From: Streptomyces netropsis
Lineage (GTDB): Bacteria > Actinomycetota > Actinomycetes > Streptomycetales > Streptomycetaceae
NCBI RefSeq assembly: GCF_014203545.1
Contig: NZ_JACHJG010000002.1
Location: forward strand, 248,001-312,000
Length of the DNA stretch: 64,000 bases
Reading direction: 5' to 3'
The notes below the pieces were generated by a model, which did not search any database, had not been told where the DNA came from, and worked only from the letters and a program-made list of their open reading frames with translations. Every line of letters starts with the position of its first letter. Within the stretch, counting starts at the first letter, position 1. Shown in pieces: positions 10,572-59,866 of the stretch. A program made the position numbers and the translations under genes.

Positions 10572-10759
10572 GTCCCCGACATGGTGTCGAGCATGCGCGG
10601 ACCGCGGAGCCGGACGGCACGGCTCGGGGGACGAACACGGGGTAGCGCCCGGTGCCCGTTCGGGCAGGCGGCCGTGTACGTCGGGGCGGCCGAAAGCTCG
10701 TTCCGCTGATCCCGCGCGCTGACGAGAATCACCCTCGTTCCCCGGTCAAGGAGAGTGGT

Positions 10760-12304: not shown

Positions 12305-12347
12305 CCGCGCACTGACTGAACTCTGGGACCGAACCTAGGAGACTGGC

Positions 12348-15053: not shown

Positions 15054-15074
15054 AATCGACACCCGGCACTGGAC

Positions 15075-15130
15075 GAGCACCGAGCACCGAGCACCGAGCG
15101 CCGAGCGCCGAGCGCCGAGCGCCGAGCACC
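15075..15130 (+). repeat. Tandem 7-bp repeat, 8 units, between CIS genes
   Basis: Eight head-to-tail copies of GAGC(A/G)CC: three GAGCACC, four GAGCGCC, one GAGCACC. They fill most of the only sizeable gap in the operon between the Pro-rich gene and the second tube gene, and end 13 nt before the ribosome-binding site. A slippage-prone array here could change spacing, but not reading frame, of the downstream gene. Confidence 0.9.
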
Positions 15131-15157
15131 GAAGGAACACAGCAGAGGGGACAGCGC

Positions 15158-15589: not shown

Positions 15590-15594
15590 GGCCG

Positions 15595-16395: not shown

Positions 16396-16402
16396 GCCGG
16401 CC

Positions 16403-18268
16403 GTGACGGGACAGAGCGTCGCCAAGTCCCTGCTCGTGGAGTTCGCCGGCCGTCCGCTGCCGGCGGCCCTGGCGAACACCCTCGTCGAAGGCTATGTGGA
16501 CGACAGCCGCACGCTGCCCGATCTGTTCGTGCTGCGCTTCCGCGACCCGGGCAGGGTGCTGCTGGGGCAGGCGGGAATCGCCGTCGGTACGAAGGTGCGG
16601 TTGCTGGCCCGCGCGGGCGGTGGCGGCCCGGCGCCCCGGCCGCTGCTGACCGGTAGCGTCACCGCGCTGGAGGTGGAGATCGACGACACCGGCACCTTCA
16701 CGGTCGTACGCGGCCTCGACGAGTCCTACCGGCTCTTCCGCGGCCGCCGGGTGGCCAGCTACCAGAACATGACCCTCGCCGACATCTGCGCCCGCGTCGC
16801 CCAGCGGGCCGGGCTGCGGCCCGGGCAGGTCGACGTCGCGGGGCCGGTGCTGGAGCACGTGGCACAGCCCAACGTCTCCGACTGGGAGTTCCTGCGGGGC
16901 CTGGCGGAGGAGGCAGGCGCGCAGGTGTATGTGACCGACGGCCGGTTGCACGTCACCAGACCGACGGAGGCCGGCGGCGCACCCGACGTCTCGGCCCGGG
17001 CCGAGAGGCACCCGCTCGTCCTGGAGATGGGCGTCAATCTGCTGCGCTGCCGTGCCGGGGTGTCGGCGGCCGAGCAGGTCTCGGCGGTCGAGGTGCGCGG
17101 CTGGGATGTACGGGCCAAGCAGCCGCTGGTCGGCCGCGCGGAGGCGGGCAAGGCCAGGACCCTGGAGCTGGGCGTCACCGCGGCACAGGTGACCGCACCG
17201 TTCGGGGAGGCCGGCTTCGTGGTCACGGACGCCCCGTACGGCACGCAGGCGGAGGTGGACCAGGCGGCCGGGGCACTGGCCGAGCGCATCGCCGGGTCCT
17301 TCGCCGAACTGGAGGCGGTCGTCCGGGGCAACCCCGCGGTCCGGGCGGGCGGCGCGGTCACGTTGACCGGGGTCGGGGCGCCCTTCGAGGGGCGGTACAC
17401 GGTGACCTCCTCGCGGCACGTGTTCGACGCGCTGCGCGGGTACGAGACGTGGATCTCGGTCTCCGGCCAGCAGGAGCGTTCGCTGTTCGGGCTGACCGGC
17501 GGCGGGGGTGCCGCCACCCACCAGGGCATGTCCGGGCTGGTCAACGCCACGGTCACGGACACCAAGGACCCCGAGGGGCTCGGCCGGGTCAAAGTGGGCT
17601 TCCCCTGGCTGTCGGACGAGTACGCGAGCGACTGGGCCCGCACCGCGCAGGCGGGCGGCACCGGCAGCGGCGAGGTGTTCGTCCCCGAGGTCGGCCACGA
17701 GGTGCTGGTGGGCTTCGAGCAGGGGCACCTGGACCGCCCGTACGTGCTGGGCGCCCTCTACAACGGGCAGGACAAGCCGTCCCAGGGCGCGGGAGGCCAG
17801 GACGGGGAGACCATCGACCCCACGAGCGGCGCCGTCAACAAGCGCGCCTTCGGATCCCGCGACGGCAACAAGCTCGAACTGCTCGACACGGCGAACGGCC
17901 CGCAAGGGGTACGGCTCGTCACCGGCGACGGAAAGCTGAAGATCGACCTCGATCGCAAGGGCACCACCATCGTGCTGCACAGCGACGGCACCGTGGAGAT
18001 CGACGCCAGGCAACGGGTGTCGATCAAGGCGGGCGACGGGGTGTCCCTGGACGCGGGCAACGGCGCGCTGGAACTCGCCGGCGGCTCCGTGAAACTGACG
18101 GCCCGCAGCGGAGTGCGGCTGGACGGCGGAAACGGTCAGGTGACGGTGTCCACCACCGGCGCGGTGGAGGTCCAGGGCAACCAGGTGGCGGTCAACGGCA
18201 CCACCCGCACCGAGGTCAAGGGCGGCCGGACCGTGTCCGTCAACGCGCCCTTGGTGAAGCTCAATTGA
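16403..18268 (+). CDS. VgrG-like central spike protein (Pvc8-like)
   Basis: The product is 621 aa with a GTG start 7 nt after the preceding stop. Residues ~1-360 are the gp27-like hub with the VLEHVAQPNVSDWEFL motif. Residues ~375-455 form the gp5 OB fold (TDTKDPEGLGRVKVGFPWL). Residues ~480-621 are a repetitive beta-helix spike (EIDARQRVSIKAGDGVSL). It forms the trimeric spike that crosses the target membrane on sheath contraction. The PAAR gene follows 60 nt later. Confidence 0.95.
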   Translation: MTGQSVAKSLLVEFAGRPLPAALANTLVEGYVDDSRTLPDLFVLRFRDPGRVLLGQAGIAVGTKVRLLARAGGGGPAPRPLLTGSVTALEVEIDDTGTFTVVRGLDESYRLFRGRRVASYQNMTLADICARVAQRAGLRPGQVDVAGPVLEHVAQPNVSDWEFLRGLAEEAGAQVYVTDGRLHVTRPTEAGGAPDVSARAERHPLVLEMGVNLLRCRAGVSAAEQVSAVEVRGWDVRAKQPLVGRAEAGKARTLELGVTAAQVTAPFGEAGFVVTDAPYGTQAEVDQAAGALAERIAGSFAELEAVVRGNPAVRAGGAVTLTGVGAPFEGRYTVTSSRHVFDALRGYETWISVSGQQERSLFGLTGGGGAATHQGMSGLVNATVTDTKDPEGLGRVKVGFPWLSDEYASDWARTAQAGGTGSGEVFVPEVGHEVLVGFEQGHLDRPYVLGALYNGQDKPSQGAGGQDGETIDPTSGAVNKRAFGSRDGNKLELLDTANGPQGVRLVTGDGKLKIDLDRKGTTIVLHSDGTVEIDARQRVSIKAGDGVSLDAGNGALELAGGSVKLTARSGVRLDGGNGQVTVSTTGAVEVQGNQVAVNGTTRTEVKGGRTVSVNAPLVKLN

Positions 18269-18328
18269 GGTGGTCGACGTGATCGGGGCAGTCGACGTCC
18301 ACGCACTCAACGCAGAGGGGCACCGCAC

Positions 18329-18601
18329 ATGCCAGCAGCCGCACGCGTCGGCGATCCCACCGGCCACCCCGGCACCGTCAGCCCGCCGGGGGACCCCACG
18401 GTGCTGATCGGCGGCAGTCCCGCGGCCACCGTCGGCACACCGCACCGATGCGCCTCGCCCGCCGCGCACCCGCCGTCCACGATCGCGTCGGGCAGCTCCG
18501 GCGTGTTGATCGGCGGCCGCCCGGCCGCCCGCGTCGGCGACACGACGGGCTGCGGCTCCCCGATCGTCTCCGGCTGCCCGACCGTGCTGATCGGCGGGTG
18601 A
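18329..18601 (+). CDS. PAAR-domain spike tip (Pvc10-like)
   Basis: The product is 90 aa: MPAAARVGDPTGHPGTVSP, then three TVLIGG/VLIGG repeats and His/Cys residues expected to bind the tip metal. It caps the VgrG-like trimer. The start at 18329 has AGAGGGG about 10 nt upstream. It lacks any toxin extension. The stop overlaps a GTG of the next gene. Confidence 0.93.
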   Translation: MPAAARVGDPTGHPGTVSPPGDPTVLIGGSPAATVGTPHRCASPAAHPPSTIASGSSGVLIGGRPAARVGDTTGCGSPIVSGCPTVLIGG

Positions 18602-19050
18602 GGAGCGTGGCACAGCAGTTCATCGGCGCGGGCTGGGCGTTCCCGCCCCGTACGGACGCCACCGGCGGCATCGCCCTGGTCGGCGGGGACCGGGAGATCG
18701 AGGAGTCGATCCGGCTGATCCTCGGCACCTCGCCCGGCGAACGCCCCATGCGCCCGGAGTTCGGCTGCGACCTCGGCGAGTACGTCTTCGCACCCGCCGA
18801 CGCGGGCACGGCCGGGCAGCTCGCCTACGAGGTACGGCTCGCCCTGGAGCGGTGGGAGCCGCGCGTGGAGGTGGCCGACGTCGCCGTCCGCTTCGACGAA
18901 GCGGACGACGGGGTGCTCTACATCGACATCAGCTACGCGATCCGCGGCGCCAACGACCCGCGCAACCTCGTCTTCCCCTTCTACGTGATCCCGCAGCACG
19001 ACGCACACCCCACCGCGGGGCACGACCTTCGCCCCGAGGAGGGCCCATGA
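18598..19050 (+). CDS. GPW/gp25 baseplate wedge protein (Pvc9-like)
   Basis: The product is ~150 aa. FIGAGWAFP, IEESIRLILGTSPGERPMRP and EFGCDLGEYVF are the diagnostic gp25 motifs, including the EPR-like core that joins sheath to baseplate. Two GTG starts are possible. The one at 18598 overlaps the PAAR stop (GTGA). The one at 18607 begins MAQQFIG and better matches the family N-terminus but has GGAG only 1 nt away. Both end at 19050. Confidence 0.92.
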   Translation: MRSVAQQFIGAGWAFPPRTDATGGIALVGGDREIEESIRLILGTSPGERPMRPEFGCDLGEYVFAPADAGTAGQLAYEVRLALERWEPRVEVADVAVRFDEADDGVLYIDISYAIRGANDPRNLVFPFYVIPQHDAHPTAGHDLRPEEGP

Positions 19051-21014
19051 CGCTCCCCGGCCCCAACCTGGACGACCGCCGGTTCCAGACTCTGGTCGAC
19101 GAGGCCAAGCGGCTGGTGCAGCAGCGGTGCCCGGAGTGGACGGACCACAACGTCTCCGACCCGGGCGTCACCCTGATCGAGGCCTTCGCCACCATGGTCG
19201 ACCAGCTCGTCTACCGCCTCAACCGGGTGCCGGACAAGAACTATCTGGCCTTCCTCGACCTGATCGGGGTGCGGCTCTACCCGCCGACCGCGGCCCGCAC
19301 CGAGGTCACCTTCCGGCTCTCCGCCCCGCAGCCGGAGACGGTGCGGATCAAGGCCGGTACGGAGGTCGCGACCGTACGCACCGAGACCGAGGAGGCCGTG
19401 GTCTTCACCACGAGCCGTGACCTGTCGGTGCCGCCGTGCTCCCTCGCCCACCTCGCCACCCGGCCCGACGCGGGAAACGCCACGGACCGCTCGGAGGAAC
19501 TGGCCCTGGGCCGCGACGTGCCCTGCTTCGCCACCCCGCCCGCACCCGGCGACTGCCTCTACATCGGCCTGAGCAACCCCGTGCCCGGCTGTGTCCTCGT
19601 GCTGCGCCTGGACTGCCGGGTCGACGGCGTGGGCGTCGACCCCCGCCGCCCGCCGCTGGTGTGGGAGGCGTGGGACGGCGGCGCCTGGGAGCCCTGCGAG
19701 GTGGAGCAGGACGACACCGGCGCGTTCAACAAGGCCGGGGACGTCATCCTGCACATGCCCGCCACCCACAGCGCCTCCGTCGTCGCCCGGCACTCCGCGG
19801 GCTGGCTGCGCTGCCGGCTGCGGGAGGCCGCCCCGGACCAGCCCGCCTACCTCGCGTCGCCGACCGTACGGCACATCACCGCCTTCACCATCGGCGGCAC
19901 CGTGGAGGCCGCCCACGCCGAGACCGTCACCGAGGAACTCCTCGGCCCGTCGGAAGGCGTACCGGGCCAGGGCTTCCGCGTCGCCCGGCCGCCGGTGGTG
20001 CCGGCGGAGGAGCCCTTCGTCGTGGAAGTCGCGGAGGGCGGCGGCTGGGTGGAGTGGACACGCGTCGACGACTTCGCCCACTCCACCGCGACCGACCGGC
20101 ACATCACCCTCGACCTCACCTCCGGCCGGGTCGACTTCGGCCCGGCCGTACGGGAACAGGACGGAACCCTGCGGCTGTACGGTGCCGTGCCCCCGAAGGG
20201 CTGCCCGGTCCGGGTGCGCGCCTACCGCACCGGCGGCGGACGCCGCGGCAACGTCGCCCGGGGCGCGCTGCGCGTGCTGCGCAGCTCCCTGCCGTACGTG
20301 GCCCGGGTGCACAACCGGCGCCCGGCGCTCGGCGGCGTCGACGGCGAGAGCGTGGACAACGCCCGCGTACGCGGCCCGATGACCCTGCGCACCCTGCACC
20401 GGGCCGTCGTACCGCACGACTACGAACAGCTCGCCCGTGAAGTCGCGCCGGACGCCGCCCGCGTGACGTGCGTACCGGCGGGCCGAGCCGAGGGGGCCGA
20501 GGGGGAGGACCAGGCCGGTGGGGTGCGGCTCCTCGTCGTTCCCGCCGGTCGCAGTGACGCGCAGGGCCGGATCGACTTCGACGAGCTGATCCCGCCGCAG
20601 GACACCCTCGCCATGATCGCCGCGTATCTGGACGAGCGGCGCCCGATCGGCACCCGGCTCGTCGTCGAACCCCCCTACTACCAGGGCGTCACCGTCGTCG
20701 CCTCGGTCCGGGCGGGCCGGGCCGTCGCGGCCGACCGGCTGCGCGAGGCGGCCCTGGCCGCCCTCTACGGCTACTTCAACCCGCTCACCGGCGGGCCGGC
20801 CGGGCAGGGCTGGCCGTTCGGTCGGCCCATCCACTCCGGCGAGGTGTTCGGCGTGCTCCAACAGGTGCCCGGCGTCGATCTGGTGGAGGACGTACGGCTC
20901 TTCCCCGCCGACCCCGTGACCGGACGGAGGGCCGAGGCGACCGCCAAGATCACGCTCGACCGGCACGCCTTGGCGTTCAGCTACGAACACCAGCTCCGGG
21001 TGAGGGAGGACTGA
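19047..21014 (+). CDS. Baseplate J-like wedge protein (Pvc11-like)
   Basis: The product is 655 aa. The N-terminus DHNVSDPGVTLIEAFATMVD is the hallmark of CIS/Mu gpJ baseplate wedges. The central ~350 residues are beta-rich, and the C-terminal gpJ fold contains LHRAVVPHDYEQLAREVAPD and the terminal hub-contact helices. The ATG overlaps the gp25 stop (ATGA). It is one of the two large wedge proteins, the other being the gpI-like protein that follows. Confidence 0.93.
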   Translation: MTLPGPNLDDRRFQTLVDEAKRLVQQRCPEWTDHNVSDPGVTLIEAFATMVDQLVYRLNRVPDKNYLAFLDLIGVRLYPPTAARTEVTFRLSAPQPETVRIKAGTEVATVRTETEEAVVFTTSRDLSVPPCSLAHLATRPDAGNATDRSEELALGRDVPCFATPPAPGDCLYIGLSNPVPGCVLVLRLDCRVDGVGVDPRRPPLVWEAWDGGAWEPCEVEQDDTGAFNKAGDVILHMPATHSASVVARHSAGWLRCRLREAAPDQPAYLASPTVRHITAFTIGGTVEAAHAETVTEELLGPSEGVPGQGFRVARPPVVPAEEPFVVEVAEGGGWVEWTRVDDFAHSTATDRHITLDLTSGRVDFGPAVREQDGTLRLYGAVPPKGCPVRVRAYRTGGGRRGNVARGALRVLRSSLPYVARVHNRRPALGGVDGESVDNARVRGPMTLRTLHRAVVPHDYEQLAREVAPDAARVTCVPAGRAEGAEGEDQAGGVRLLVVPAGRSDAQGRIDFDELIPPQDTLAMIAAYLDERRPIGTRLVVEPPYYQGVTVVASVRAGRAVAADRLREAALAALYGYFNPLTGGPAGQGWPFGRPIHSGEVFGVLQQVPGVDLVEDVRLFPADPVTGRRAEATAKITLDRHALAFSYEHQLRVRED

Positions 21015-26615: not shown

Positions 26616-26629
26616 TGTAACGCGTTCTA
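26616..26629 (+). promoter_or_regulatory. KstR-like operator TGTAACGCGTTCTA upstream of the acyl-CoA dehydrogenase
   Basis: This 14-bp site fits the mycobacterial KstR consensus TnnAACnnGTTnnA at every defined position. It lies 79 nt before the dehydrogenase start, with TACTGT, a possible -10 box, overlapping its right end. Binding of a TetR-type lipid or sterol regulator is inferred. Confidence 0.55.
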
Positions 26630-26708: not shown

Positions 26709-27896
26709 GTGGATCTCCAGTACACCCCCGAACAGCGGCGGTTGCGCGCGGAACTGCGGGAGTACTTCGCCGCGCTGGTGCCCGACAACGCCTACGCCCG
26801 CCACTTCGACCCCGCCGAGCAGAAGCGCTTCTACCGCCGGACGATCCGCCGCCTCGGCGCGGACGGCCGCCTCGGGGTCGGCTGGCCGACGGAGTACGGC
26901 GGCAGCGGCATGACGCCGATGGAACAGTTCATCTTCTTCGACGAGGCCGCGCAGGCGGGCGTGCCGCTGCCGCTCATGGCCCTCAACACCGTCGGCCCCA
27001 CGATCATGCAGTTCGGCACCGACGAACAGAAGGCGTACTTCCTCCCGAAGATCCTCTCCGGCGAGCTGGACTTCGCCATCGGCTACAGCGAGCCCGATGC
27101 CGGTACGGACCTCGCCTCCCTCAAGACCCGCGCGGTGCGCGACGGCGACGACTATGTCGTGAACGGGCAGAAGATCTGGACCACCAACGGCGACACCGCC
27201 GACTGGGTCTGGCTGGCCGTGCGCACCCGGCCCGTCGAGGCCGGAGTGCCGCCGCACAAGGGCATCACCATCCTCCTCGTACCGACCGCCGACCCCGGCT
27301 ACTCCTGCACCCTCATCCGCACCCTCGCCTCGCACGACACCACCGCGAGCCACTACGAGAACGTCCGGGTCCCCGTCACCCGCCGCGTCGGTGAGGAGAA
27401 CCAGGGCTGGCGGCTGATCACCACCCAGCTCAACCACGAGCGCGTCACCCTCGCCGCCCACGGCACCACCGCCATCAGCGCCCTGCGCCAGGTCCAGCGC
27501 TGGGCCGCCGACACCAAGCTCGCCGACGGCCGGCGCGTCATCGACCTCGGCTGGGTCCGCGGCCGGCTCGCCCGTACGCACGTCAGGCTCGACGCCATGA
27601 AGCTGCTCAACTGGCGCATGGTGGACGCCCTGCACCGGGGCACGCTCACCCCGCAGGACGCCTCGGCCGTCAAGGTCTACGGATCCGAGGCCCGCCGGGA
27701 CGCCTACGCCTGGCTGATGGAGATCCTCGGCGCCGCCGGCCCCCTGAAGGAGGGCTCCGCGGGCGCCGTGCTCCACGGAGAGCTGGAGCGCGGCTACCGC
27801 AGCGCCGTCATCTTCACGTTCGGGGGCGGCAACAACGAGATCCAGCGGGAGATCATCTCCTGGATCGGACTCGGCATGCCCAGGGTGCGGCGCTGA
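26709..27896 (+). CDS. Acyl-CoA dehydrogenase (FadE type)
   Basis: The product is 395 aa. The GTG start at 26709 follows GGAGGGG. The N-terminal helical domain begins VDLQYTPEQRRLRAELREYF. The FAD-binding segment YSEPDAGTDLASLKTRA and the C-terminal GGGNNEIQREIISWIGLG are conserved. The branch resembles FadE proteins of sterol or branched acyl-CoA degradation, which are often heterodimeric, but no partner gene is adjacent. It sits behind a KstR-like operator and may belong functionally to the catabolic island at 44-60 kb. Confidence 0.9.
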   Translation: MDLQYTPEQRRLRAELREYFAALVPDNAYARHFDPAEQKRFYRRTIRRLGADGRLGVGWPTEYGGSGMTPMEQFIFFDEAAQAGVPLPLMALNTVGPTIMQFGTDEQKAYFLPKILSGELDFAIGYSEPDAGTDLASLKTRAVRDGDDYVVNGQKIWTTNGDTADWVWLAVRTRPVEAGVPPHKGITILLVPTADPGYSCTLIRTLASHDTTASHYENVRVPVTRRVGEENQGWRLITTQLNHERVTLAAHGTTAISALRQVQRWAADTKLADGRRVIDLGWVRGRLARTHVRLDAMKLLNWRMVDALHRGTLTPQDASAVKVYGSEARRDAYAWLMEILGAAGPLKEGSAGAVLHGELERGYRSAVIFTFGGGNNEIQREIISWIGLGMPRVRR

Positions 27897-50275: not shown

Positions 50276-51790
50276 ATGTCTTCACGGCCTTCAGCACGCG
50301 AGAACACGGTGGACGGCGTCCTGCGGCGCAGCGCCCGGCGGGTGCCCGAAAGGACCGCCCTGCGGTACGGGGAGCGCGCCTGGACGTACCGCGAGCTCGA
50401 CGAGGCGGTGACCGGCGCGGCCCGGGTGCTGCTGGAGCGGGGGCTGCGGTCGGGTGACCGGGTCGCCGCGTACGGGCACAACTCCGACGCCTATCTGATC
50501 GGCTTCCTGGGCTGCGCCCGCGCCGGGCTGGTGCACGTGCCCGTCAACCACCACCTCACCGGCGAGGACCTGCGCTACATCCTCGAACAGTCCGGCGCCG
50601 CCCTGGTCCTCACCGACCCGCAGCTCGAGCACCGGCTGCCGGGCGGCGTGCGCGCGCTGCCGCTGCGCGACGCCACCGGCTCCCTGCTGGAACGGCTCGT
50701 GGACCCGCCGGGGACGGCCACGGTCCTGGCCGGCGGCCCGGACGAGGGCGACCTCGCGCAGCTGCTCTACACCTCCGGCACCACCGCCCTGCCCAAGGGC
50801 GCGATGATGACGCACGGGGCGCTGCTGCACGCCTACGCCAGTGCCGTCCTGGCCCTCGACCTCAAGGAGACGGACCGGCCGGTCCACGCGCTGCCGCTCT
50901 ACCACTCGGCGCAGCTGCACGTCTTCCTGCTGCCGTATCTGGCGGTGGGCGCGGAGAACACCGTCATCGACGCCCCGGATCCGTACCGGATCCTCGAACT
51001 CGTCTCCGCCGGGCACGCCGACAGCTTCTTCGCCCCGCCGACCGTATGGATCGCGCTGGCCGGCCACCCGGGTTTCGCCACCCGCGACCTCGGCGCCCTG
51101 CGCAAGGCGTATTACGGTGCCTCCGTCATGCCCGTCCCCGTGCTGGAACGGCTGCGCGCCCGCCTCCCCGGCCTCGCCTTCTACAACTGCTTCGGGCAGA
51201 GCGAGATCGGCCCGCTGGCCACGGTCCTCGGGCCGCACGAGCACGAGGGGCGACTGGAGTCGTGCGGGCGGCCGGTGCTGTTCGTGGAGGCACGGATCGT
51301 GGACGAGCGGGGCCGTGAGGTGCCCGACGGCACCACGGGCGAAGTCGTCTACCGTTCACCGCAGTTGTGCGAGGGCTACTGGGACAAGCCCGAGGAGACG
51401 GCGGAGGCCTTCCGCGACGGCTGGTTCCACTCCGGCGACCTCGCCGTCCGCGACGGCGAGGGCTATCTGACCGTCGTCGACCGGGTCAAGGACGTCATCA
51501 ACTCGGGCGGTGTGCTGGTCGCCTCCCGCCAGGTCGAGGACGTCCTCTACGGGCACCCGGCCGTCGCCGACGTGGCGGTGGTCGGACTGCCGGACGAGCG
51601 GTGGATCGAGGCGGTCACGGCCGTGGTCGTCGCGCGCGACAAGGTCGACGAACCGGAGCTGATCGCCTACGCACGTGAGCGGCTGCCCGCGTTCAAGGCG
51701 CCCAAGCGCGTGCTGTTCGTGGGCCGGCTGCCGCGCAACGCCAGCGGGAAGGTCCTCAAGCGGGAGCTGCGCGACCGCTTCGGCGCGTGA
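50276..51790 (+). CDS. AMP-dependent acyl-CoA synthetase
   Basis: The product is 504 aa, ANL superfamily. LLYTSGTTALPKGAMMTH, YNCFGQSEIGPL, GWFHSGDLAVRDGEGYLTV and the catalytic Lys in NASGKVLKRELR are intact. It resembles fatty or aromatic acyl-CoA ligases with substrate unknown. It is monocistronic, with its own HrdB-type promoter, and converges with paaK across a 30-bp gap in which a weak hairpin (GTGAGC at 51787, GCTCAC at 51809) may terminate both. Confidence 0.92.
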   Translation: MSSRPSARENTVDGVLRRSARRVPERTALRYGERAWTYRELDEAVTGAARVLLERGLRSGDRVAAYGHNSDAYLIGFLGCARAGLVHVPVNHHLTGEDLRYILEQSGAALVLTDPQLEHRLPGGVRALPLRDATGSLLERLVDPPGTATVLAGGPDEGDLAQLLYTSGTTALPKGAMMTHGALLHAYASAVLALDLKETDRPVHALPLYHSAQLHVFLLPYLAVGAENTVIDAPDPYRILELVSAGHADSFFAPPTVWIALAGHPGFATRDLGALRKAYYGASVMPVPVLERLRARLPGLAFYNCFGQSEIGPLATVLGPHEHEGRLESCGRPVLFVEARIVDERGREVPDGTTGEVVYRSPQLCEGYWDKPEETAEAFRDGWFHSGDLAVRDGEGYLTVVDRVKDVINSGGVLVASRQVEDVLYGHPAVADVAVVGLPDERWIEAVTAVVVARDKVDEPELIAYARERLPAFKAPKRVLFVGRLPRNASGKVLKRELRDRFGA

Positions 51791-51820
51791 GCGGGGCGCC
51801 GCCCACCGGCTCACGGGGGA

Positions 51821-53128
51821 TCACGACGCGCCCTTCGGGCGCAGGTCCACGATCCGCTTGAGCTTGCCCACCGACCGCTCCAGGGACTCGGGCTCCACGA
51901 TCTCGACCGCAACCGAGACCCCGATCCCGTCCTTCACCCGCCGGACGATGCCCGAGGCCGCCGCCGCCCGCTGCTCGGGCGTCGCCCCCTGACGCGCCTC
52001 GGCCCGTACGGTGAGGTGGTCCAGCCGCCCCTCACGGGTCAGCCGCAGCTGGAAGTGCGGGGCGATGCCGGGGGTGCCGAGGACGATCTCCTCGATCTGC
52101 GCGGGGAAGAGATTCACCCCGCGCAGGATGACCATGTCGTCGCTGCGGCCGGTGATCCTCTCCATCCGGCGGAAGGCGGGGCGGGCGGTGCCGGGCAGCA
52201 GCCGGGTGAGATCGCGGGTGCGGTAGCGGACGACGGGCATGGCCTCCTTGGTGAGCGAGGTGAAGACCAGCTCGCCGTGGCCGCCGTCGGGCACGGGCTC
52301 CCCGGTGAGGGGGTCGACGATCTCCGGGAAGAAGTGGTCCTCCCAGATGTGCGGGCCGTCCTTGGTCTCCACGCACTCCTGGGCGACGCCCGGGCCGATG
52401 ACCTCCGAGATCCCGTATATGTCGACGGCGTCGATGGCGAAGCGGTCCTCGATCTCCCGGCGCATCCCCTCGCCCCACGGTTCGGCACCGAAGACGCCGA
52501 CCCGCAGTGACGTGGAGCGGGGATCCACCCCCTGGCGTTCGAACTCGTCGAGCAGCGTGAGCATGTAGGAGGGCGTCACCATGATGACCTCGGGCCGGAA
52601 GTCCCGGATGATCCGCACCTGGCGCGCGGTCATGCCGCCGGAGGCGGGGATCACCGTGCAGCCGAGCCGCTCGGCGCCGTAGTGCGCGCCCAGGCCGCCG
52701 GTGAACAGGCCGTAGCCGTAGGCCACGTGGACCTTGTCGCCCGGCCGGGCGCCGGCGGCGCGGAGGGAGCGGGCGACGACATCCGCCCAGGTGTCGAGGT
52801 CCCGCTCGGTGTAGCCGACGACGGTCGGCTCGCCGGTGGTGCCGCTGGAGGCGTGGACGCGCCGCACCTCGGCCTGGGGCACGGCGAACATGCCGAAGGG
52901 GTAGTTGGCGCGCAGATCGGCCTTGGTGGTGAAGGGGAACCGGGCGAGATCGGCGAGACTGCGGCAGTCCTCGGGGTGCACCCCGGCCGCGTCGAACGAC
53001 CGCCGGTAGAAGTCGACGCGGTCGTAGGCGTGCCGCAGCGTGGAGCGCAGCCTTTGCAGTTGCAGCGCCGCCAGCTCCTCGCGCGAGAGCCGCTCCGCCG
53101 CGTCGGGAAGTCCCCGGGAATCCGTCAT
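51821..53128 (-). CDS. paaK: Phenylacetate-CoA ligase
   Basis: The product is 435 aa. ASSGTTGEPTVVGYT (P-loop), VGVFGAEPWGEGMR, DIYGISEVIGPGVAQEC, GELVFTSLTKEAMPVVRYR (in part) and the C-terminal RSVGKLKRIVDLR are diagnostic for PaaK. It would convert phenylacetate, CoA and ATP to phenylacetyl-CoA. Other paa genes are not in the window, so an adapted substrate is possible. The ATG at 53128 is preferred; a GTG three codons upstream (53137) is also possible. A 14-bp palindrome lies 26 nt upstream. Confidence 0.9.
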   Translation of the reverse strand: MTDSRGLPDAAERLSREELAALQLQRLRSTLRHAYDRVDFYRRSFDAAGVHPEDCRSLADLARFPFTTKADLRANYPFGMFAVPQAEVRRVHASSGTTGEPTVVGYTERDLDTWADVVARSLRAAGARPGDKVHVAYGYGLFTGGLGAHYGAERLGCTVIPASGGMTARQVRIIRDFRPEVIMVTPSYMLTLLDEFERQGVDPRSTSLRVGVFGAEPWGEGMRREIEDRFAIDAVDIYGISEVIGPGVAQECVETKDGPHIWEDHFFPEIVDPLTGEPVPDGGHGELVFTSLTKEAMPVVRYRTRDLTRLLPGTARPAFRRMERITGRSDDMVILRGVNLFPAQIEEIVLGTPGIAPHFQLRLTREGRLDHLTVRAEARQGATPEQRAAAASGIVRRVKDGIGVSVAVEIVEPESLERSVGKLKRIVDLRPKGAS

Positions 53129-53154
53129 GCGCTCCACCGCCCCGTTGTCAGCCG

Positions 53155-53274: not shown

Positions 53275-53928
53275 TCAGCCGAGGACGAGCGGGAGTTTCG
53301 CGGTCAACTCACCCAGTTCGGTCATCTCGGTCCCGGCCGGGGCACGTCGTCCGGTGCCGATCAGCAGTACGTCCTTGTCGGAGAACGACGGGGGGAAGGC
53401 CGCACCGGCGATCTTCTCCAGCAGCTCGCGGGAGCGGGCGAGCCCCTCGGCGGGCGGTTCCGCCGCGTCGGGGAGGTGCGCGATCAGGTCGAGATGGTGC
53501 AGCGTCCATTCCAGGACGTACGCGTGGAGGTAGTCGCCCGCGGTGAGCACCTCGTCGCGGGTGCCGACCCGGAGGGCGGGATCCGCGAGTCCGGCAGCGC
53601 GGCCCGCGGCGGAGCCGACGTCGTCGAGGTGGAACTTGAGCAGCCGCGGCTCTTCGTACGCGGTGGCCAGCCGGACGGTCAGCGCGTCGAGCGGGTCGTC
53701 GCAGGTCGGGGCTTCGGCGATGGTCCAGTAGCTCACCGCGTCCCGGGTCGGTTCCGTTCCGGCGGGGGTGACGAGGGTGATCAGGACGTCCTGAGCATCG
53801 ATGATCAGGTGGCACACCAGGTCCCGCACGAGCCAGCCGGTGCAGCCGGACGGCCGCGCGAAGTCCTCGTCCGGGAGTTCGGCGACCGCCGTGCGCAACG
53901 CTGTCCACGAGCGTGAGAAGAGATCCAC
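53275..53928 (-). CDS. Maleylpyruvate isomerase/DinB-like mycothiol-dependent family protein
   Basis: The product is 217 aa. The N-terminal four-helix domain (ALRTAVAELPDEDFARPSG, GWLVRDLVCHLIIDAQDVL) is the mycothiol-dependent maleylpyruvate-isomerase fold. The metal-site His residues are in CHLI and in the LHHLDLIAHL region. The GTG at 53928 lacks a ribosome-binding site, but TAGCTT (53936-53941, minus strand) lies 7 nt upstream, indicating a leaderless mRNA. Function is unknown; a thiol-transfer or detoxification role is typical for the family. Confidence 0.8.
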   Translation of the reverse strand: MDLFSRSWTALRTAVAELPDEDFARPSGCTGWLVRDLVCHLIIDAQDVLITLVTPAGTEPTRDAVSYWTIAEAPTCDDPLDALTVRLATAYEEPRLLKFHLDDVGSAAGRAAGLADPALRVGTRDEVLTAGDYLHAYVLEWTLHHLDLIAHLPDAAEPPAEGLARSRELLEKIAGAAFPPSFSDKDVLLIGTGRRAPAGTEMTELGELTAKLPLVLG

Positions 53929-54026
53929 GGCCCGCAAGCTAGCAGCGCCCGGACCCCGCTGCGACCGATTTCGCCCGCCCGGCCGCCTGCCCTCCTCGTC
54001 GCGGGGGAGGGGCCGACGGCCGCGCG

Positions 54027-55685
54027 TCAGTCCTCCGCGTCGTCGCCGTCCCCGGCGCCTCCGGCGGCCGCCGCCCGAGCCACCTCCCGCGCCCAGCGGT
54101 AGTCCGCCTTGCCGCTGGGGGAGCGCCTGACGCGGTCGGTGAGGACGACGACGCGCGGGATCTTGTAGCCCGCGAGCCGGGCCCGGCAGTGCGTCCGCAC
54201 GGCGTCGGCCGTCAGGGGCGCGGCGCCCGCGCGGGGCTGGACCACGGCGGCGACGCGCTGTCCCCACGTCGGGTCGGGCACGCCCGCGACCAGCGCGTCG
54301 TACACATCCGGATGGGCCTTGAGGGCCTGCTCGACCTCCTCCGGATACACCTTCTCGCCACCGGTGTTGATGCACTGCGAGCCACGGCCGAGGACCGTGA
54401 CCACGCCCGTCTCGTCGACCGTCGCCATGTCGCCGAGCAGCACCCAGCGCTCGCCGTGCGCCCGGAAGAACGTCTGGGCGGTCTTGACGGGGTCGTTGTA
54501 GTAGCCCAGCGGCACATGGCCGCGCTGTGCGATCCGCCCCACCTCGCCGGCCGCGACCCTCTCGTGCGTCGCCGGATCCACCACGGCGGTACGGTCGTTG
54601 ACGCGCAGCCGGAAGCCCCGCCGGGCCCCCGCGTCCTCGGTGGCCGTGCCGTTGAAGCCGGACTCGGAGGAGCCGAAGTTGTTCAGCAGCGCCACCCGTG
54701 GCAGGAGCGCCGCGAACTGGGCGCGCACGGTGTCGGAGAGGACGGCACCCGAGCTGCTGACGGTCAGCAGCGAGGAGCAGTCGGTGTCGCGCAGCGGCCC
54801 GGACAGCGCGTCCACCAGCGGTCGCAGCATCGCGTCGCCCACCAGCGAGAGGCTGGTCACCCGTTCGCGCGCGACGGTGCGCAGCACCTCCTCGGGCGCG
54901 TACTTGCGGTGGAGGACGACCTTCTGCCCGAAGTCGAAGGCGATGAAGGAGGTGAGCGTCGACGTGCCGTGCATCAGCGGCGGGGTGGGGAAGAAGACGA
55001 GCCCCTCACCACCCGCCGCGACCCGCTCGGCCAGCTCCTCCGGCCGCTGCACCGGCGCGCCCGTCGGCGCGCCGCCGCCGAGGCCGGAGAAGAACAGGTC
55101 CTCCTGCCGCCACATGACCCCCTTGGGCAGCCCGGTGGTGCCGCCGGTGTAGATGATGAACTGGTCGTCTCCCGAACGCGGTGCGAAGTCGCGCCAGGGC
55201 GCCCCCGACGCCACGGCGGCGGTGAAGCCGACGGGGGTGAGGGGCGGCTCGGCAGCACCCTCGGGGGCCGCGCCCACCCGGACGAGGTGCCGCAGCCGCT
55301 CCGCCCGGGGCGCGGCCGCCGCGACCCGGCCGGTGAACTCCGCGTCGAAGACCAGGGCGGCCAGATCGGCGTCCCGGTAGAGGTAGGCCAACTCCTCGTC
55401 CACATAGCGGTAGTTCACATTGACCGGCACGGCCCGGATCTTCAGACAGGCCCATACGGTCTGGAGGTACTCGACGCCGTTGTAGAGGTGGAGCCCCACG
55501 TGTTCGCCCGGCCCGATCCCGCTGCCTTGGAGGTGGTGGGCGAGCCGGTTGGCCGCCGTGTCCAGCTCGGCGTACGTCAGCCGCCGCTCGGCGCCGCCGC
55601 CCGGGAGGTCGAGATGGACCAGGGCCTCCCGGTCCGGCACCGTGTCGACGACCGACTCGAAGAGATCGGCGAGGTTGTAGTCCAC
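54027..55685 (-). CDS. Acyl-CoA synthetase, FadD19-like
   Basis: The product is 552 aa. The GTG at 55685 follows AGGAGGAG. The N-terminal motif VPVNVNYRYVDEELAYLY is characteristic of the sterol side-chain CoA ligase group around mycobacterial FadD19. YTGGTTGLPKGVMWR (P-loop), NNFGSSESGFNG, GRGSQCINTGGEKVYPEE and the catalytic Lys in RSPSGKADYRW are intact. It is divergent from the crotonase-DUF35-thiolase operon over a 175-bp region carrying a palindromic operator, and probably activates the acid processed by that operon. Confidence 0.92.
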   Translation of the reverse strand: MDYNLADLFESVVDTVPDREALVHLDLPGGGAERRLTYAELDTAANRLAHHLQGSGIGPGEHVGLHLYNGVEYLQTVWACLKIRAVPVNVNYRYVDEELAYLYRDADLAALVFDAEFTGRVAAAAPRAERLRHLVRVGAAPEGAAEPPLTPVGFTAAVASGAPWRDFAPRSGDDQFIIYTGGTTGLPKGVMWRQEDLFFSGLGGGAPTGAPVQRPEELAERVAAGGEGLVFFPTPPLMHGTSTLTSFIAFDFGQKVVLHRKYAPEEVLRTVARERVTSLSLVGDAMLRPLVDALSGPLRDTDCSSLLTVSSSGAVLSDTVRAQFAALLPRVALLNNFGSSESGFNGTATEDAGARRGFRLRVNDRTAVVDPATHERVAAGEVGRIAQRGHVPLGYYNDPVKTAQTFFRAHGERWVLLGDMATVDETGVVTVLGRGSQCINTGGEKVYPEEVEQALKAHPDVYDALVAGVPDPTWGQRVAAVVQPRAGAAPLTADAVRTHCRARLAGYKIPRVVVLTDRVRRSPSGKADYRWAREVARAAAAGGAGDGDDAED

Positions 55686-55779: not shown

Positions 55780-55796
55780 ACTGACGGGAAGTCAGA
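55780..55796. promoter_or_regulatory. Palindrome CTGAC-GGGAA-GTCAG in the ligase/crotonase divergent promoter
   Basis: ACTGACGGGAAGTCAGA has perfect 5-bp arms. It shares CTGACG and TCAGA at the same spacing with the site at 44141-44157. It lies 64 nt before the crotonase start and 94 nt before the ligase start. Likely a TetR-type operator; no regulator gene is in the window. Confidence 0.55.
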
Positions 55797-55860
55797 AATC
55801 TATTGAACCCCGCCCCCGCCTCCTGCAACCTGTTCTCCGTCTCGAGACGGGAGAACTGTC

Positions 55861-56661
55861 ATGGGCGGGACCCCGCACCTCACCGCGGAGCGCGTCGGCG
55901 CGACCCTCGTGCTCACCCTGAACCGGCCGGAGGCCAAGAACGCCCTCTCGCTGCCGATGCTCGTCGGGCTGTACGACGGCTGGCTGGCGGCCGACGCGGA
56001 CGACGCGATCCGCTCGGTCGTCCTCACCGGCGCCGGCGGCGCCTTCTGCTCCGGCATGGACCTCAAGGCCCTCGCCGGCCGGGGCCAGGCCCGCGACGTG
56101 TACCGCGAGCGCCTCGACGCCGACCCCGACCTGCACTGGAAGGCCATGCTCCGGCACCACCGGCCACGCAAACCGGTCATCGCCGCCGTCGAGGGCCCCT
56201 GCGTCGCCGGCGGCACCGAGATCCTCCAGGGCACCGACATCCGCATCGCCGGCGAGAGCGCCGTCTTCGGCCTCTTCGAAGTGCGCCGCGGACTGTTCCC
56301 CATCGGCGGCTCCACCGTCCGCCTCGCCCGCCAGATCCCCCGCACCCACGCCCTGGAAATGCTGCTCACCGGACGCCCGTACCCGGCCCGGGAAGCCGAA
56401 CGCATCGGGCTCATCGGACGCGTCGTCCCCGACGGCACGGCCCTGGAAGCGGCCCTGGCGACCGCCGAACTCGTCAACGCCAACGGACCGCTGGCCGTCG
56501 AAGCCGTCAAGGCCTGCGTTCACGACGCCGCCGAGATGGGCGAGGCGGAGGGCCTCGCCCTCGAACTCCGGCGCGGCTGGCCGATCTTCGACACGGACGA
56601 CGCCAAGGAAGGCGCCCGCGCCTTCGCCGAGAAACGCCCCGCCGTCTACCGGCGCTCCTGA
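55861..56661 (+). CDS. Enoyl-CoA hydratase/crotonase family protein
   Basis: The product is 266 aa. Both catalytic Glu positions of enoyl-CoA hydratases are kept: AGGTEILQGTDIRIA and FGLFEVRRGLFPIGGS. The oxyanion-hole loop is AFCSGMDLKAL. The resemblance is closest to the EchA-type enzymes in sterol or branched acyl-CoA operons. It is first gene of a four-gene operon with the DUF35 and thiolase-fold genes and probably hydrates the enoyl-CoA before C-C cleavage. Confidence 0.92.
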   Translation: MGGTPHLTAERVGATLVLTLNRPEAKNALSLPMLVGLYDGWLAADADDAIRSVVLTGAGGAFCSGMDLKALAGRGQARDVYRERLDADPDLHWKAMLRHHRPRKPVIAAVEGPCVAGGTEILQGTDIRIAGESAVFGLFEVRRGLFPIGGSTVRLARQIPRTHALEMLLTGRPYPAREAERIGLIGRVVPDGTALEAALATAELVNANGPLAVEAVKACVHDAAEMGEAEGLALELRRGWPIFDTDDAKEGARAFAEKRPAVYRRS

Positions 56662-56691: not shown

Positions 56692-57657
56692 ATGCCCGAA
56701 CCCCTGACCGCCCCGCTGGTCGTGGAATTCCCCTTCACCCGCTCCCTCGGCCCCGTGCAGAGCGCGTTCCTCACCGGGCTGCGCGAGCGGACCGTACTCG
56801 GCGTCCGGACCACCGACGGGCAGGTGCTCGTGCCCCCCGTCGAGTACGACCCGCGGACCGCCGAGGAGATCCGCGACCTCGTCGAGGTCGCCGCCACCGG
56901 CACCGTCACCACCTGGGCCTGGAACCCCGCCCCACGCCGCGGCCAGCCGCTGCGCACCCCCTTCGCCTGGGCCCTCGTCCGCCTCGACGGCGCCGACACC
57001 GCCCTGCTGCACGCCCTCGACGCCCCCGGCCCGGACGCCGTCCGCACCGGGATGCGGGTCCGCGTCCGCTGGGCCCTGGAGCGGACCGGAGCGATCACCG
57101 ACATCGCCTGCTTCGAGCCGCACGACGACGAGGCCACCGAACCCACCGAGCGGGCCGCCACCGCGCACGCCTCCTCGCCGGGCGTGTTCGCCGACCCCGT
57201 CACCGCCGTCACCACGCCCGCCCGCCTCGACTACACCTACTCACCCGGCCGCGCCCAGACCCGCTACCTCACCGCCCTCGCCGGCCGCAGGACCGTGGGC
57301 GAACGCTGCCCCGCCTGCCGCAAGGTCTACGTACCACCCCGCGGTGCCTGCCCCACCTGCGGCGTCGCCACCGACGAGGAGGTGGAGGTCGGCCCGCGCG
57401 GGACCGTCACCACCTACTGCGTCGTCAACATCAAAGCCAAAGGCCTGGACATCGAAGTCCCCTACGTCTACGCCCACATCGCCCTCGACGGCGCCGACCT
57501 CGCACTCCACGGACGCATCGCCGGCATCCCCTACGACCGGGTGCGCATGGGGCTGCGCGTCGAGCCCGTATGGACCGAAGGCGCCCGCTACCCCGACCAC
57601 TACCGCCCCGCGGACGAGCCCGACGCCGACTACGACACGTACAAGGAGCTGCTGTGA
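56692..57657 (+). CDS. Double OB-fold DUF35 protein with zinc ribbon
   Basis: The product is 321 aa with GAAGGAG upstream. Two OB-fold (DUF35) modules are present. The first (~55-125) lacks a zinc ribbon. The second (~205-300) has one, CPACRK...CPTCG. DUF35 proteins pair with thiolase-fold partners and are required for activity, for example in the ChsH2-DUF35/Ltp2 retro-aldolase of cholesterol side-chain degradation. Having two modules in one chain could match the two thiolase-fold genes that follow. Its stop overlaps the next GTG by 4 nt. Confidence 0.85.
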   Translation: MPEPLTAPLVVEFPFTRSLGPVQSAFLTGLRERTVLGVRTTDGQVLVPPVEYDPRTAEEIRDLVEVAATGTVTTWAWNPAPRRGQPLRTPFAWALVRLDGADTALLHALDAPGPDAVRTGMRVRVRWALERTGAITDIACFEPHDDEATEPTERAATAHASSPGVFADPVTAVTTPARLDYTYSPGRAQTRYLTALAGRRTVGERCPACRKVYVPPRGACPTCGVATDEEVEVGPRGTVTTYCVVNIKAKGLDIEVPYVYAHIALDGADLALHGRIAGIPYDRVRMGLRVEPVWTEGARYPDHYRPADEPDADYDTYKELL

Positions 57658-58703
57658 CACACGCCGCCCGGAACGTGGCGATCGTCGCCTTCGCGCAGAG
57701 CGCCCACCGGCGCCGCACCGACGGACTCTCCGAGGTCGAGACGCTCATGCCGGTGCTCCACGACGCCCTCGGCCACGTGGGCCTCACCGCCCGCGACATC
57801 GACTTCACCTGCTCCGGGTCGAGCGACTACCTGGCCGGCCGGGCCTTCTCCTTCACCATGGCCCTCGACGGGGTCGGGGCCTGGCCACCCATCACCGAGT
57901 CCCACGTGGAGACGGACGGGGCCTGGGCGCTGTACGAGGCATGGGTGAAGATCCTCACCGGCGCGGCCGACACCGCGCTCGTCTACGCCTACGGCACGTC
58001 CTCGGCCGGTGACGTACGGGACGTCCTCACCCGGCAGCTCGACCCCTACTACCTCGCCCCCCTGTGGCCCGACCCCGTCGCCCTGGCCGCCCTCCAGGCA
58101 CGGGCGCTCATCGACGCGGGGGAGACCGACGAGCAGGCCCTCGCCGCCGTCGCCGCGAGGAACCGCGCGGCCGGCCCACAGGGGGCCGCGCACCGCCCCC
58201 GGGCGGCGGGCGACTACGTCGTGGCGCCGCTGCGCGCCCGCGACTGCCCGCCCATCGGCGACGGCGCCGCCGCCGTCGTCCTCGCCGCCGGGGACACCGC
58301 CCGCCGGCTCCACGACCGGCCCGCCTGGATCCGCGGCATCGACCACCGCGTCGAGACACACGCCCTCGGCGTACGCGATCTCACCGACTCGCCCTCCACC
58401 CGCCTCGCCGCGACGCGCGCCGGAGCCTTCGACGCCCCCGTCGACACGGCGGAACTGCACGCGCCCTTCACCTCGCAGGAGATCGTGCTGCGCAAGGCGC
58501 TGCGCCTGGGCGACGGCGTCACCGTGAACCCTTCGGGCGGCGCCCTGGCCGCCAACCCCGTCATGGCCACGGGCCTCATCCGGCTCGGCGAGGCCGCGGC
58601 CCGGATCCACCGGGGCGCGAGCGACCGCGCACTCGCCCACGCCACCGCCGGCCCGTGCCTCCAGCAGAACCTCGTCGCGGTCCTGGAAGGAGAGACCCGG
58701 TGA
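57654..58703 (+). CDS. Thiolase-fold lipid-transfer-type protein lacking the catalytic Cys
   Basis: The product is 349 aa with a GTG start overlapping the DUF35 stop. The fold is clear (IGDGAAAVVLAAGD, TVNPSGGALAANPVMATG), but at the nucleophile position the sequence reads ESHVETDGAWAL with no Cys, and the usual GHP His is replaced (AANPVMA). It should not be a classical thiolase. By analogy with Ltp2-type proteins it could be a retro-aldolase or a structural partner of the next gene product. Overlaps on both sides indicate strict co-expression. Confidence 0.85.
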   Translation: MTHAARNVAIVAFAQSAHRRRTDGLSEVETLMPVLHDALGHVGLTARDIDFTCSGSSDYLAGRAFSFTMALDGVGAWPPITESHVETDGAWALYEAWVKILTGAADTALVYAYGTSSAGDVRDVLTRQLDPYYLAPLWPDPVALAALQARALIDAGETDEQALAAVAARNRAAGPQGAAHRPRAAGDYVVAPLRARDCPPIGDGAAAVVLAAGDTARRLHDRPAWIRGIDHRVETHALGVRDLTDSPSTRLAATRAGAFDAPVDTAELHAPFTSQEIVLRKALRLGDGVTVNPSGGALAANPVMATGLIRLGEAAARIHRGASDRALAHATAGPCLQQNLVAVLEGETR

Positions 58704-59866
58704 CCCGAGAACCCGTGGCCGTCGTCGGAATCGGGCAGACCCGGCACGCCGCCGCCCGCCGTGACGTCTCCATCGCCGGACTGGTCCGCGAGGCCGCCCG
58801 GCGCGCGCTCGACGACGCGGCGCTCACCTGGTCCGACATCGACGCGGTCGTCATCGGCAAGGCACCCGACTTCTTCGAGGGCGTCATGACGCCCGAGCAC
58901 TACCTCGCCGACGCGCTCGGCGCGGTCGGCAAACCGCTGCTGCGGGTGCACACCGCGGGCTCCGTGGGCGGCTCCACCGCCCTCGTGGCCGCCGACCTCG
59001 TCACCGCGCGCGTCCACCGCACCGTCCTGACCCTGGCCTTCGAGAAGCAGTCCGAGTCCAACGCCATGTGGGGCCTGTCCCTGCCCGTCCCCTTCCAGCA
59101 GCCCCTGTTGGCCGGCGCCGGCGGCTTCTTCGCCCCGCACGTCCGGGCGTACATGCGCCGCACCGGCGCGCCCGACGGCGTGGGCTCCCTGGTGGCCTAC
59201 AAGGACCGCCGCAACGCCCTCAAGAACCCCTACGCCCACCTCCACGAGCACGACATCACCCTGGAGAAGGTCCGGTCCTCACCCATGCTCTGGGACCCGA
59301 TCCGCTACTCCGAAACCTGCCCCTCCTCCGACGGGGCCTGCGCCATGGTCCTCACCGACCGCGCGGGCGCGGCCCGCGCCCCGTACCCGCCCGCGTGGCT
59401 GCACGGCGGCGCCATGCGCAGCGAACCGACGCTGTTCGCCGGCAAGGACTTCGTCTCGCCCCGCGCGGGGAAGGACTGCGCCGCCGACGTCTACCGCCAG
59501 GCCGGGATCACCGACCCGCGGCGCGAGATCGACGCCGTCGAGATGTACGTGCCCTTCAGCTGGTACGAGCCGATGTGGCTGGAGAACCTCGGCTTCGCGG
59601 CGGAGGGCGAGGGCTGGAAGCTCACCGAGGCGGGGGTGACCGAACTGGACGGCGACCTCCCGGTCAACCCCTCCGGCGGTGTCCTGTCCACCAACCCGAT
59701 CGGCGCCTCCGGCATGCTCCGCTTCGCCGAGGCCGCGCTCCAGGTCCGGGGGCGGGCGGGCGAGCACCAGGTCGCGGACGCCCGCAAGGCGCTCGGCCAC
59801 GCCTACGGCGGGGGCGCGCAGTTCTTCTCCATGTGGCTGGTCGCCGCCGAACCCCCCACCACCTGA
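58700..59866 (+). CDS. Thiolase-fold lipid-transfer-type protein, second paralogue
   Basis: The product is 388 aa with a GTG start overlapping the previous stop. AVVGIGQTRHAAARRDVSI is typical of SCP2-thiolase-like proteins. The nucleophile region reads VHTAGSVGGSTAL (no Cys), and the C-terminal motif NPSGGVLSTNPIGASGM has Asn where thiolases have the GHP His. ETCPSSDGACAMVL is conserved. With its paralogue and the DUF35 protein it likely forms a C-C-cleaving (retro-aldol) complex acting on a hydroxyacyl-CoA from the crotonase. It ends the operon. Confidence 0.87.
   Translation: MTREPVAVVGIGQTRHAAARRDVSIAGLVREAARRALDDAALTWSDIDAVVIGKAPDFFEGVMTPEHYLADALGAVGKPLLRVHTAGSVGGSTALVAADLVTARVHRTVLTLAFEKQSESNAMWGLSLPVPFQQPLLAGAGGFFAPHVRAYMRRTGAPDGVGSLVAYKDRRNALKNPYAHLHEHDITLEKVRSSPMLWDPIRYSETCPSSDGACAMVLTDRAGAARAPYPPAWLHGGAMRSEPTLFAGKDFVSPRAGKDCAADVYRQAGITDPRREIDAVEMYVPFSWYEPMWLENLGFAAEGEGWKLTEAGVTELDGDLPVNPSGGVLSTNPIGASGMLRFAEAALQVRGRAGEHQVADARKALGHAYGGGAQFFSMWLVAAEPPTT

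Follow-up and report, generated by a model that had tools for sequence, protein, structure and literature searches.

Ltp3 and Ltp4, known from Rhodococcus and from Mycobacterium-type sterol clusters, are described in the literature as forming a heteromeric aldol-lyase that acts on C24-branched sterol side chains (PMC6678751, PMC6273163), and both genes are reported to be essential for branched side chains (PMC6273163), with the genetic result coming from Rhodococcus. In Ltp2 (with ChsH2; PDB 6ok1), the tyrosine of the YDHF motif is a catalytic base; its counterpart in the YDCY motif of Sal (with Shy; PDB 9myr) is essential, and Sal combines a glycine at the position of the thiolase cysteine with a tyrosine base and with Cys304 of YDCY as acid (PMC12329534). 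Here, we describe an operon in a stretch of 64,000 nucleotides from Streptomyces netropsis (contig NZ_JACHJG010000002.1, positions 248,001 to 312,000), hereafter the window, that encodes a double DUF35 (OB-fold) protein followed by an Ltp4-like and an Ltp3-like protein. The trio is probably an aldol-lyase for C24-branched sterol side chains. This enzyme type is not new, as the literature already states it for relatives, and the Ltp3/Ltp4-like pair has a known counterpart and is not an unknown pair. Its main value is a clear prediction of residues to test in an aldolase with only distant PDB relatives.

An Ltp4- and Ltp3-like pair that lacks both thiolase catalytic residues

The gene at 57654-58703 (+ strand, GTG start) encodes an Ltp4-like thiolase-fold protein of 349 residues that scored 537 bits against the NCBIfam model PRK07937 (cut-off 419), and the gene at 58700-59866 (+ strand, GTG start) encodes an Ltp3-like thiolase-family protein of 388 residues that scored 705 bits against PRK08313 (cut-off 514). 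We take these models to represent the Ltp4 and Ltp3 families, respectively, an assignment that the gene neighborhood supports. The Ltp4-like protein is 53-56% identical to its counterparts in 17 loci of mycobacterial type (L005-L021; 54% for L009). The Ltp3-like protein shares 66% identity with that of G003, a Mycobacterium-like genome in which the homologs belong to a single cluster that also holds FadD19-, EchA19-, CYP142-, KshA-, KstD-, Ltp2-, CYP125-, and FadA5-like genes. The G003 names are our own presumptive assignments from gene order and sequence; KshA and KstD are backed by PDB matches, and CYP125, FadA5, and EchA19 by PDB matches of their relatives in the window genome.

A reading of the window from its letters alone (the sequence-only reading) had claimed that both proteins lack the nucleophilic cysteine and the histidine of the GHP motif of thiolases, and our analysis bears this out. 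The motifs on which it relied are present: ESHVETDG from residue 82 and AANPV from residue 299 in the Ltp4-like protein, and VHTAGSVGG from residue 83 and STNPIG from residue 330 in the Ltp3-like protein. Alignment with relatives places Val85 (Ltp4-like) and Gly87 (Ltp3-like) at the nucleophile position and Asn301 and Asn332, respectively, at the position of the GHP histidine, so that neither protein has the residues that define a thiolase. The loop around the nucleophile position contains no cysteine elsewhere in either protein, and a thiolase with a displaced cysteine was therefore rejected. Conservation was assessed in 111 sequences per family, drawn from the window itself, from 80 named loci, and from 30 loci in genomes across the class; the named loci are the best 80 of at least 581 confirmed, and 77 of the 80 are titled Streptomyces. 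Val85, Gly87, and Asn332 are invariant, and Asn301 occurs in 110 of the 111. Because the replacements are invariant or nearly so, the loss of the thiolase residues is old and maintained, and the complete conservation at the replaced cysteine sites led us to reject a degenerate, decaying pair.

The thiolase fold itself is supported for both proteins by phmmer matches to thiolases and, for the Ltp4-like protein, by an AlphaFold model of moderate quality (mean pLDDT 68.9; low confidence for residues 57-87). All 50 PDB structures listed as matching this model have the thiolase fold, with TM scores of 0.60-0.75 by query length; the Ltp3-like protein was assigned by sequence. Matches to 6esq raised the HMG-CoA synthase/thiolase complexes with DUF35 as a candidate, which was set aside because family models and synteny favor Ltp3/Ltp4.

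The double DUF35 gene (56692-57657, + strand) encodes 321 residues with two stretches of Pfam PF01796 and one of PF12172; NCBIfam gave no match at 1e-5. The claim that DUF35 is doubled was confirmed by aligning the two halves, which scored 140 compared with a mean of 29.5 and a maximum of 56 in 500 shuffles, and by an hhalign probability of 99.8%. An AlphaFold2 model (pLDDT 79) shows secondary structure that repeats at an offset of ~166 residues, and its top PDB fold match is 6ok1_B. The C half carries a C4 zinc-finger pattern that the N half lacks. This pattern is present in all 86 sequences of the Streptomyces set and in none of the 24 others (L005-L027, L030), indicating that it is not essential to the double-OB family. 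The tight coupling proposed earlier also holds: the double-OB, Ltp4-like, and Ltp3-like genes are linked by 4-nucleotide overlaps with the stop of the preceding gene, they adjoin in every one of the 30 loci taken from across the class, and each has a match in all 80 named loci. It is plausible that the double DUF35 protein bridges the two thiolase-like subunits.

Two further genes belong to the set. An EchA19-like enoyl-CoA hydratase gene lies directly 5′ of the double-OB gene (55861-56661, + strand; PRK07799, 394 bits, cut-off 316). The encoded protein has EchA19 (6wyi) as its top PDB match and is 52% identical to the EchA19-like protein of G003; against the NCBIfam EchA19 model it scored 360 bits, under the cut-off of 400. 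Divergent from the operon is a gene for a FadD19-like acyl-CoA synthetase (54027-55685, - strand; PRK07798, 724 bits, cut-off 543), which has a match in 76 of the 80 named loci. Like the known Ltp3/Ltp4 systems with a double-OB protein (Rhodococcus ltp3/ltp4 and the Mycobacterium-type sterol cluster), the window has the same two NCBIfam subfamilies, the gene order double-OB-Ltp4-Ltp3, FadD19 and EchA19 in the set, and the loss of both the cysteine and the GHP histidine. It differs from G003, where ~4 kb with other genes separates EchA19 from the double-OB gene, and from the Mycobacterium-type cluster in general in that its remaining side-chain genes are located on separate contigs and a ring-opening gene was not found. 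The family scores above cut-off and the gene set shared with a genome that carries a full sterol cluster argue that the trio is a sterol aldol-lyase.

Comparison of the active site with Ltp2, Sal, and BbsAB

PDB sequence searches with the Ltp4-like and Ltp3-like proteins returned distant relatives only, and active-site positions were read from an alignment with Ltp2-type proteins. The Ltp3-like protein resembles Ltp2: it belongs to the thiolase family, has a glycine in place of the cysteine, has a tyrosine (Tyr283) at the base position, and is encoded with a DUF35 partner. It shares the glycine and the tyrosine with Sal as well. In contrast, the Ltp4-like protein of the window has Val85 and His269 at the two positions. 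The sequence-only reading had suggested a search for the tyrosines of Ltp2, which succeeded in part. The base tyrosine is present in the Ltp3-like family, where Tyr283 and Pro285 are invariant (111/111), and the second tyrosine of Ltp2 (Tyr344) and the histidine of YDHF are conserved in neither protein. The Ltp3-like protein reads YVPF where Ltp2 reads YDHF, and it has Pro285 at the position of Cys304 of Sal. Membership in the Ltp2/Sal group was rejected because the acid residue is lacking, and the likeness was retained: glycine for cysteine and tyrosine for the histidine of SCP2-thiolase, as in Ltp2 and Sal, point to a sterol aldolase. Our analysis thus arrives at the heteromeric retro-aldolase for CoA esters that had been proposed earlier and that the literature describes for Ltp3-Ltp4; the residues of Ltp2 are only partly kept.

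The window system also departs from Ltp2-ChsH2 in having two distinct thiolase-fold subunits and a duplicated DUF35 protein that carries no fused MaoC hydratase. BbsAB (benzoylsuccinyl-CoA thiolase; PDB 7pxp), found by phmmer and among the fold matches, likewise joins a thiolase-fold subunit to a DUF35 partner. BbsAB is a true thiolase with a cysteine, and the Ltp3-like protein scored 106 bits against the BbsAB-type model, far from its cut-off of 750.

Sterol side-chain genes elsewhere in the genome and across the genus

Additional sterol side-chain genes are present elsewhere in the host genome (8.04 Mb). On contig 1, a CYP125-like gene (54% identity) adjoins a FadA5-like gene (63% identity), an arrangement found in all three genomes examined. 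The top PDB matches of the CYP125-like protein are CYP125; the FadA5-like protein scores over the threshold set for the "steroid 3-ketoacyl-CoA thiolase" model and has FadA5 as its top PDB match. On contig 21, Ltp2 (65% identity) is preceded by a hydratase that combines MaoC, zinc, OB, and MaoC domains; the two form a ChsH-Ltp2 pair. The presence of CYP125, a FadA5-like thiolase, and this pair supports the assignment of the trio as a sterol aldolase, as does the in vitro hydroxylation of cholesterol by CYP125A13 of Streptomyces peucetius, in a report that describes a search for ring genes as under way (PMC9728343). The 444-residue protein at L124:6449-7783, encoded 5′ of Ltp2, comprises a FAS1-type/MaoC domain, a zinc ribbon, an OB domain, and a second MaoC domain (just under the Pfam cut-off), and in this domain order resembles a fusion of ChsH2 with ChsH1 into a single polypeptide.

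Searches of the host genome for ring-degradation genes yielded no KshA ortholog (best match, a 26% fragment at 2.5e-12), no match to the HsaC family at 1e-5, and no KstD match at 1e-40 among the 48 of 58 candidates scored, the KstD search being limited to at most 48 candidates per genome.

We then surveyed 179 genomes of the genus of the window, taken as Streptomyces. Ltp4 was detected in 123, CYP125 in 122, Ltp2 in 122, and KshA (at 1e-90) in 15. Ltp4 and CYP125 occur together in 121 genomes, with Ltp4 alone in 2, CYP125 alone in 1, and neither in 55; the counts for Ltp4 and Ltp2 are the same. All three genes are present in 119 genomes, 105 of which lack KshA, and none of the three in 55. They lie far apart: in G302, a single contig, they are at ~5.77, 2.19, and 0.37 Mb. 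This co-occurrence of Ltp4 with CYP125 and Ltp2 further supports a sterol aldolase. The link between KshA and Ltp4 is weak within the genus, with KshA in 14 of 123 genomes with Ltp4 compared with 1 of 56 without it. Among 28 genus genomes searched for KstD, it was detected in 10 of the 18 that carry Ltp4 and in 0 of the 10 that do not. None of the 28 reached the cut-off for the HsaC family; the best match was in G143 (5.5e-97), and weaker long matches occurred in G018, G101, and G225 (with Ltp4) and in G163 and G199 (without Ltp4). G143 has KshA, with KstD-, HsaE-, HsaF-, and HsaG-like genes beside it, and this gene set indicates that states with and without ring-opening genes both exist in the genus.

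The pattern differs elsewhere in the class. Of 296 class genomes, 69 carry Ltp4 and 36 carry KshA, and all 36 genomes with KshA also carry Ltp4. KshA is present in 35 of 51 Ltp4-bearing genomes outside the genus compared with 1 of 18 inside it, and the link between KshA and Ltp4 outside the genus supports the sterol assignment. The 16 exceptions outside the genus all come from two families (f17 and f18), and so Streptomyces is not alone in having Ltp4 without KshA.

Candidate operators in the operon promoter

The divergent promoter between the FadD19-like and EchA19-like genes contains two conserved elements. The first is the palindrome TGACN5GTCA (55782-55794; sole copy in the window), a candidate TetR-type operator. 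It occurs in all 76 divergent promoters compared, with 104 copies in all locus bases, and recurs 5′ of the hydratase-Ltp2 pair; four loci (L041, L069, L090, L106) were left out because the FadD19/EchA19 pair is incomplete in the stretch. In the promoters inspected, conserved arms enclose a variable spacer, a pattern that speaks for binding, although common promoter ancestry explains part of it.

The second element is a KstR-like box with the core TnnAACnnGTTnnA (consensus from PMC1995591), present at 55824-55837 with one mismatch. With up to one mismatch, the core is found in 75 of the 76 promoters, 31 of them exact; in the 1,579,026 locus bases, there are 33 exact copies and 164 with up to one mismatch. 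The same scan returned exact cores 5′ of several G003 sterol genes and boxes with one mismatch in the CYP125-FadA5 intergenic region of the three genomes examined. By sequence, then, the operon promoter carries the box of a KstR regulon, albeit with its one mismatch, and the occurrence of such boxes in both the operon and the CYP125/FadA5 promoters is a further argument for a sterol aldolase.

Proposed mechanism and alternative explanations

Family membership, the folds of the Ltp4-like and double-OB proteins, active-site residues, conservation, synteny, and co-occurrence are observations; all catalytic roles, together with the stoichiometry and substrate of the trio, are inferred. In the route we propose, CYP125 and FadD19 would yield a steroid-26-oyl-CoA, and a dehydrogenase and EchA19 would convert it to a β-hydroxyacyl-CoA whose C24 bears a tertiary alcohol. 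Retro-aldol cleavage of the C-C bond by the trio would then leave a ketone. Tyr283 of Ltp3 would serve as general base on the hydroxyl, and Gly87 would open the space of the former nucleophilic cysteine and contribute a backbone NH. Asn332 probably replaces the GHP histidine in its oxyanion role. Ltp4 would be a remodeled partner that completes the dimer and the substrate pocket, and each half of the double-OB protein may dock on one subunit. As the trio belongs to a sterol side-chain kit that is dispersed among several contigs and in which we found no gene for ring opening, the expected product would be a 17-ketosteroid.

Several points weigh against a sterol aldol-lyase. The general acid of Ltp2 or Sal (Tyr344 or Cys304) has no counterpart in the Ltp3-like protein, where Pro285 occupies the Cys304 position. 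In Mycolicibacterium neoaurum WIII, formation of 4-HBC from phytosterols was stopped by knockout of atf1 only and not by single knockouts of ltp3 or ltp4 (PMC10398937), and since the single knockouts kept 4-HBC formation, a strict need for either gene in that strain is doubtful. A review places carboxylation before cleavage (PMC6678751), and no carboxylase was seen among the operon genes. EchA19 is reported to be non-essential for sitosterol degradation in Mycobacterium smegmatis, where its absence only causes delay. The co-occurrence counts, such as the 121 genomes with both Ltp4 and CYP125, ignore phylogeny; the genomes share ancestry, and no probability is claimed. Finally, the FadD19-like protein is only 42% identical to that of G003, the double-OB protein is 43% identical to its G003 counterpart, and the EchA19-like protein misses the EchA19 model cut-off, so the substrate may differ.

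In one alternative, the trio is an aldolase whose substrate in Streptomyces is another β-branched acyl-CoA, for instance one derived from a terpenoid or hopanoid acid, and not a sterol. The failure to find KshA, HsaC, and KstD in the host genome fits such a substrate, as do the rarity of KshA among Ltp4-bearing genomes of the genus (14/123), its absence from 16 of 51 Ltp4-bearing genomes of other genera, and the fact that FadD19 and the double-OB protein are the least conserved parts of the set. However, the sterol side-chain enzymes CYP125 and Ltp2 track Ltp4 almost one to one, a FadA5-like thiolase stands beside CYP125 wherever the arrangement was examined, and CYP125A13 of S. peucetius takes cholesterol (PMC9728343). 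We regard a non-sterol substrate as unlikely.

A second alternative concerns the division of labor between the subunits. We read Ltp3 as carrying the retro-aldol site and Ltp4 as its remodeled partner, an assignment drawn from the alignment. If instead both subunits were catalytic, Ltp4 would have a second, different active site formed from His84, Glu86, and Asp88, and the two would perform successive steps, such as decarboxylation and then cleavage. The motif H84-V-E86-x-D88 is strictly conserved in Ltp4 (His84, Val85, Glu86, and Asp88 each 111/111), beyond what a scaffold would seem to need, and both genes are reported to be essential for branched side chains (PMC6273163). Yet the base position of Ltp4 varies (His in 98, Tyr in 10, and Cys in 3 of the 111), Ltp4 lacks 17 alignment columns after the base motif, and the conserved loop could instead contribute to dimer contacts. 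Two active sites seem about as unlikely as a non-sterol substrate. Far less credible is a thiolase with an alternative nucleophile such as Cys53 of the Ltp4-like protein (in CSGSSDYLAG), which is invariant (111/111) but lies outside the nucleophile loop, in a pair that also lacks the GHP histidine and in which the Ltp3-like protein has the glycine and tyrosine of known aldolases.

Possible side-chain degradation in Streptomyces

Streptomyces has been counted as mostly without steroid catabolism, with 55 of 57 genomes lacking the pathway (PMC4810484). Our survey suggests that much of the genus carries the side-chain half of sterol catabolism alone, a statement we did not find among the open-access PMC papers listed by our searches. 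A broader reading, which we rate as slightly less likely than not, combines this with a sterol aldol-lyase. Approximately two thirds of Streptomyces species would carry a scattered sterol side-chain pathway, mostly without ring opening, made up of CYP125, FadD19, EchA19, the double-OB-Ltp4-Ltp3 trio, FadA5, and ChsH-Ltp2 and sharing KstR-like and TGACN5GTCA operators. This pathway would strip plant and fungal sterols to 17-ketosteroids, gaining acetyl- and propionyl-CoA and releasing the nucleus. Ltp3-Ltp4 would then represent a third type of active site, with YVPF and asparagine replacing the known acid and histidine and with a specialized, non-identical partner. The genus-wide evidence for this reading covers Ltp4, CYP125, Ltp2, and KshA. 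If it is correct, common soil bacteria would be natural makers of 17-ketosteroids, and plant sterols would be linked to the supply of propionyl-CoA, a polyketide precursor.

Neighboring genes and other features of the window

The only exact KstR-like core in the window lies at 26616-26629, 80 bp upstream of a FadE26-like acyl-CoA dehydrogenase gene (26709-27896, + strand; start codon chosen by us). The encoded protein has Pfam acyl-CoA dehydrogenase domains and shares 53% identity with its FadE26-like counterpart in G003 (395 of 416 residues covered). The gene, ~29 kb from the operon, is possibly a member of the same pathway; a FadE26-like gene falls within the flanks of only 1 of the 80 other loci.

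A TetR regulator gene on contig 5 (L123:11967-12611) was considered as a candidate KstR, but PDB searches did not identify it as such, matching only 6srn (a TetR entry) and, weakly, EthR and YvdT. The same stretch contains TGACN5GTCA palindromes at L123:7457, 10009, and 19718, close to genes for a DUF35 protein, an acyl-CoA dehydrogenase-like protein, and a second Ltp2-like protein.

Close to the operon, at 50285-53137, are genes for a PRK08316 acyl-CoA synthetase and PaaK, each over its cut-off, with tblastn matches in 38 (some distant) and 39 of the 80 loci, respectively. A mycothiol-enzyme-like gene at 53338-54030 had no match at 1e-15 in the 80 named loci. Farther away, at 3566-21014, the window encodes an AAA ATPase and tail sheath, tail tube, baseplate, and injector proteins, which together constitute a phage-tail-type contractile injection system.

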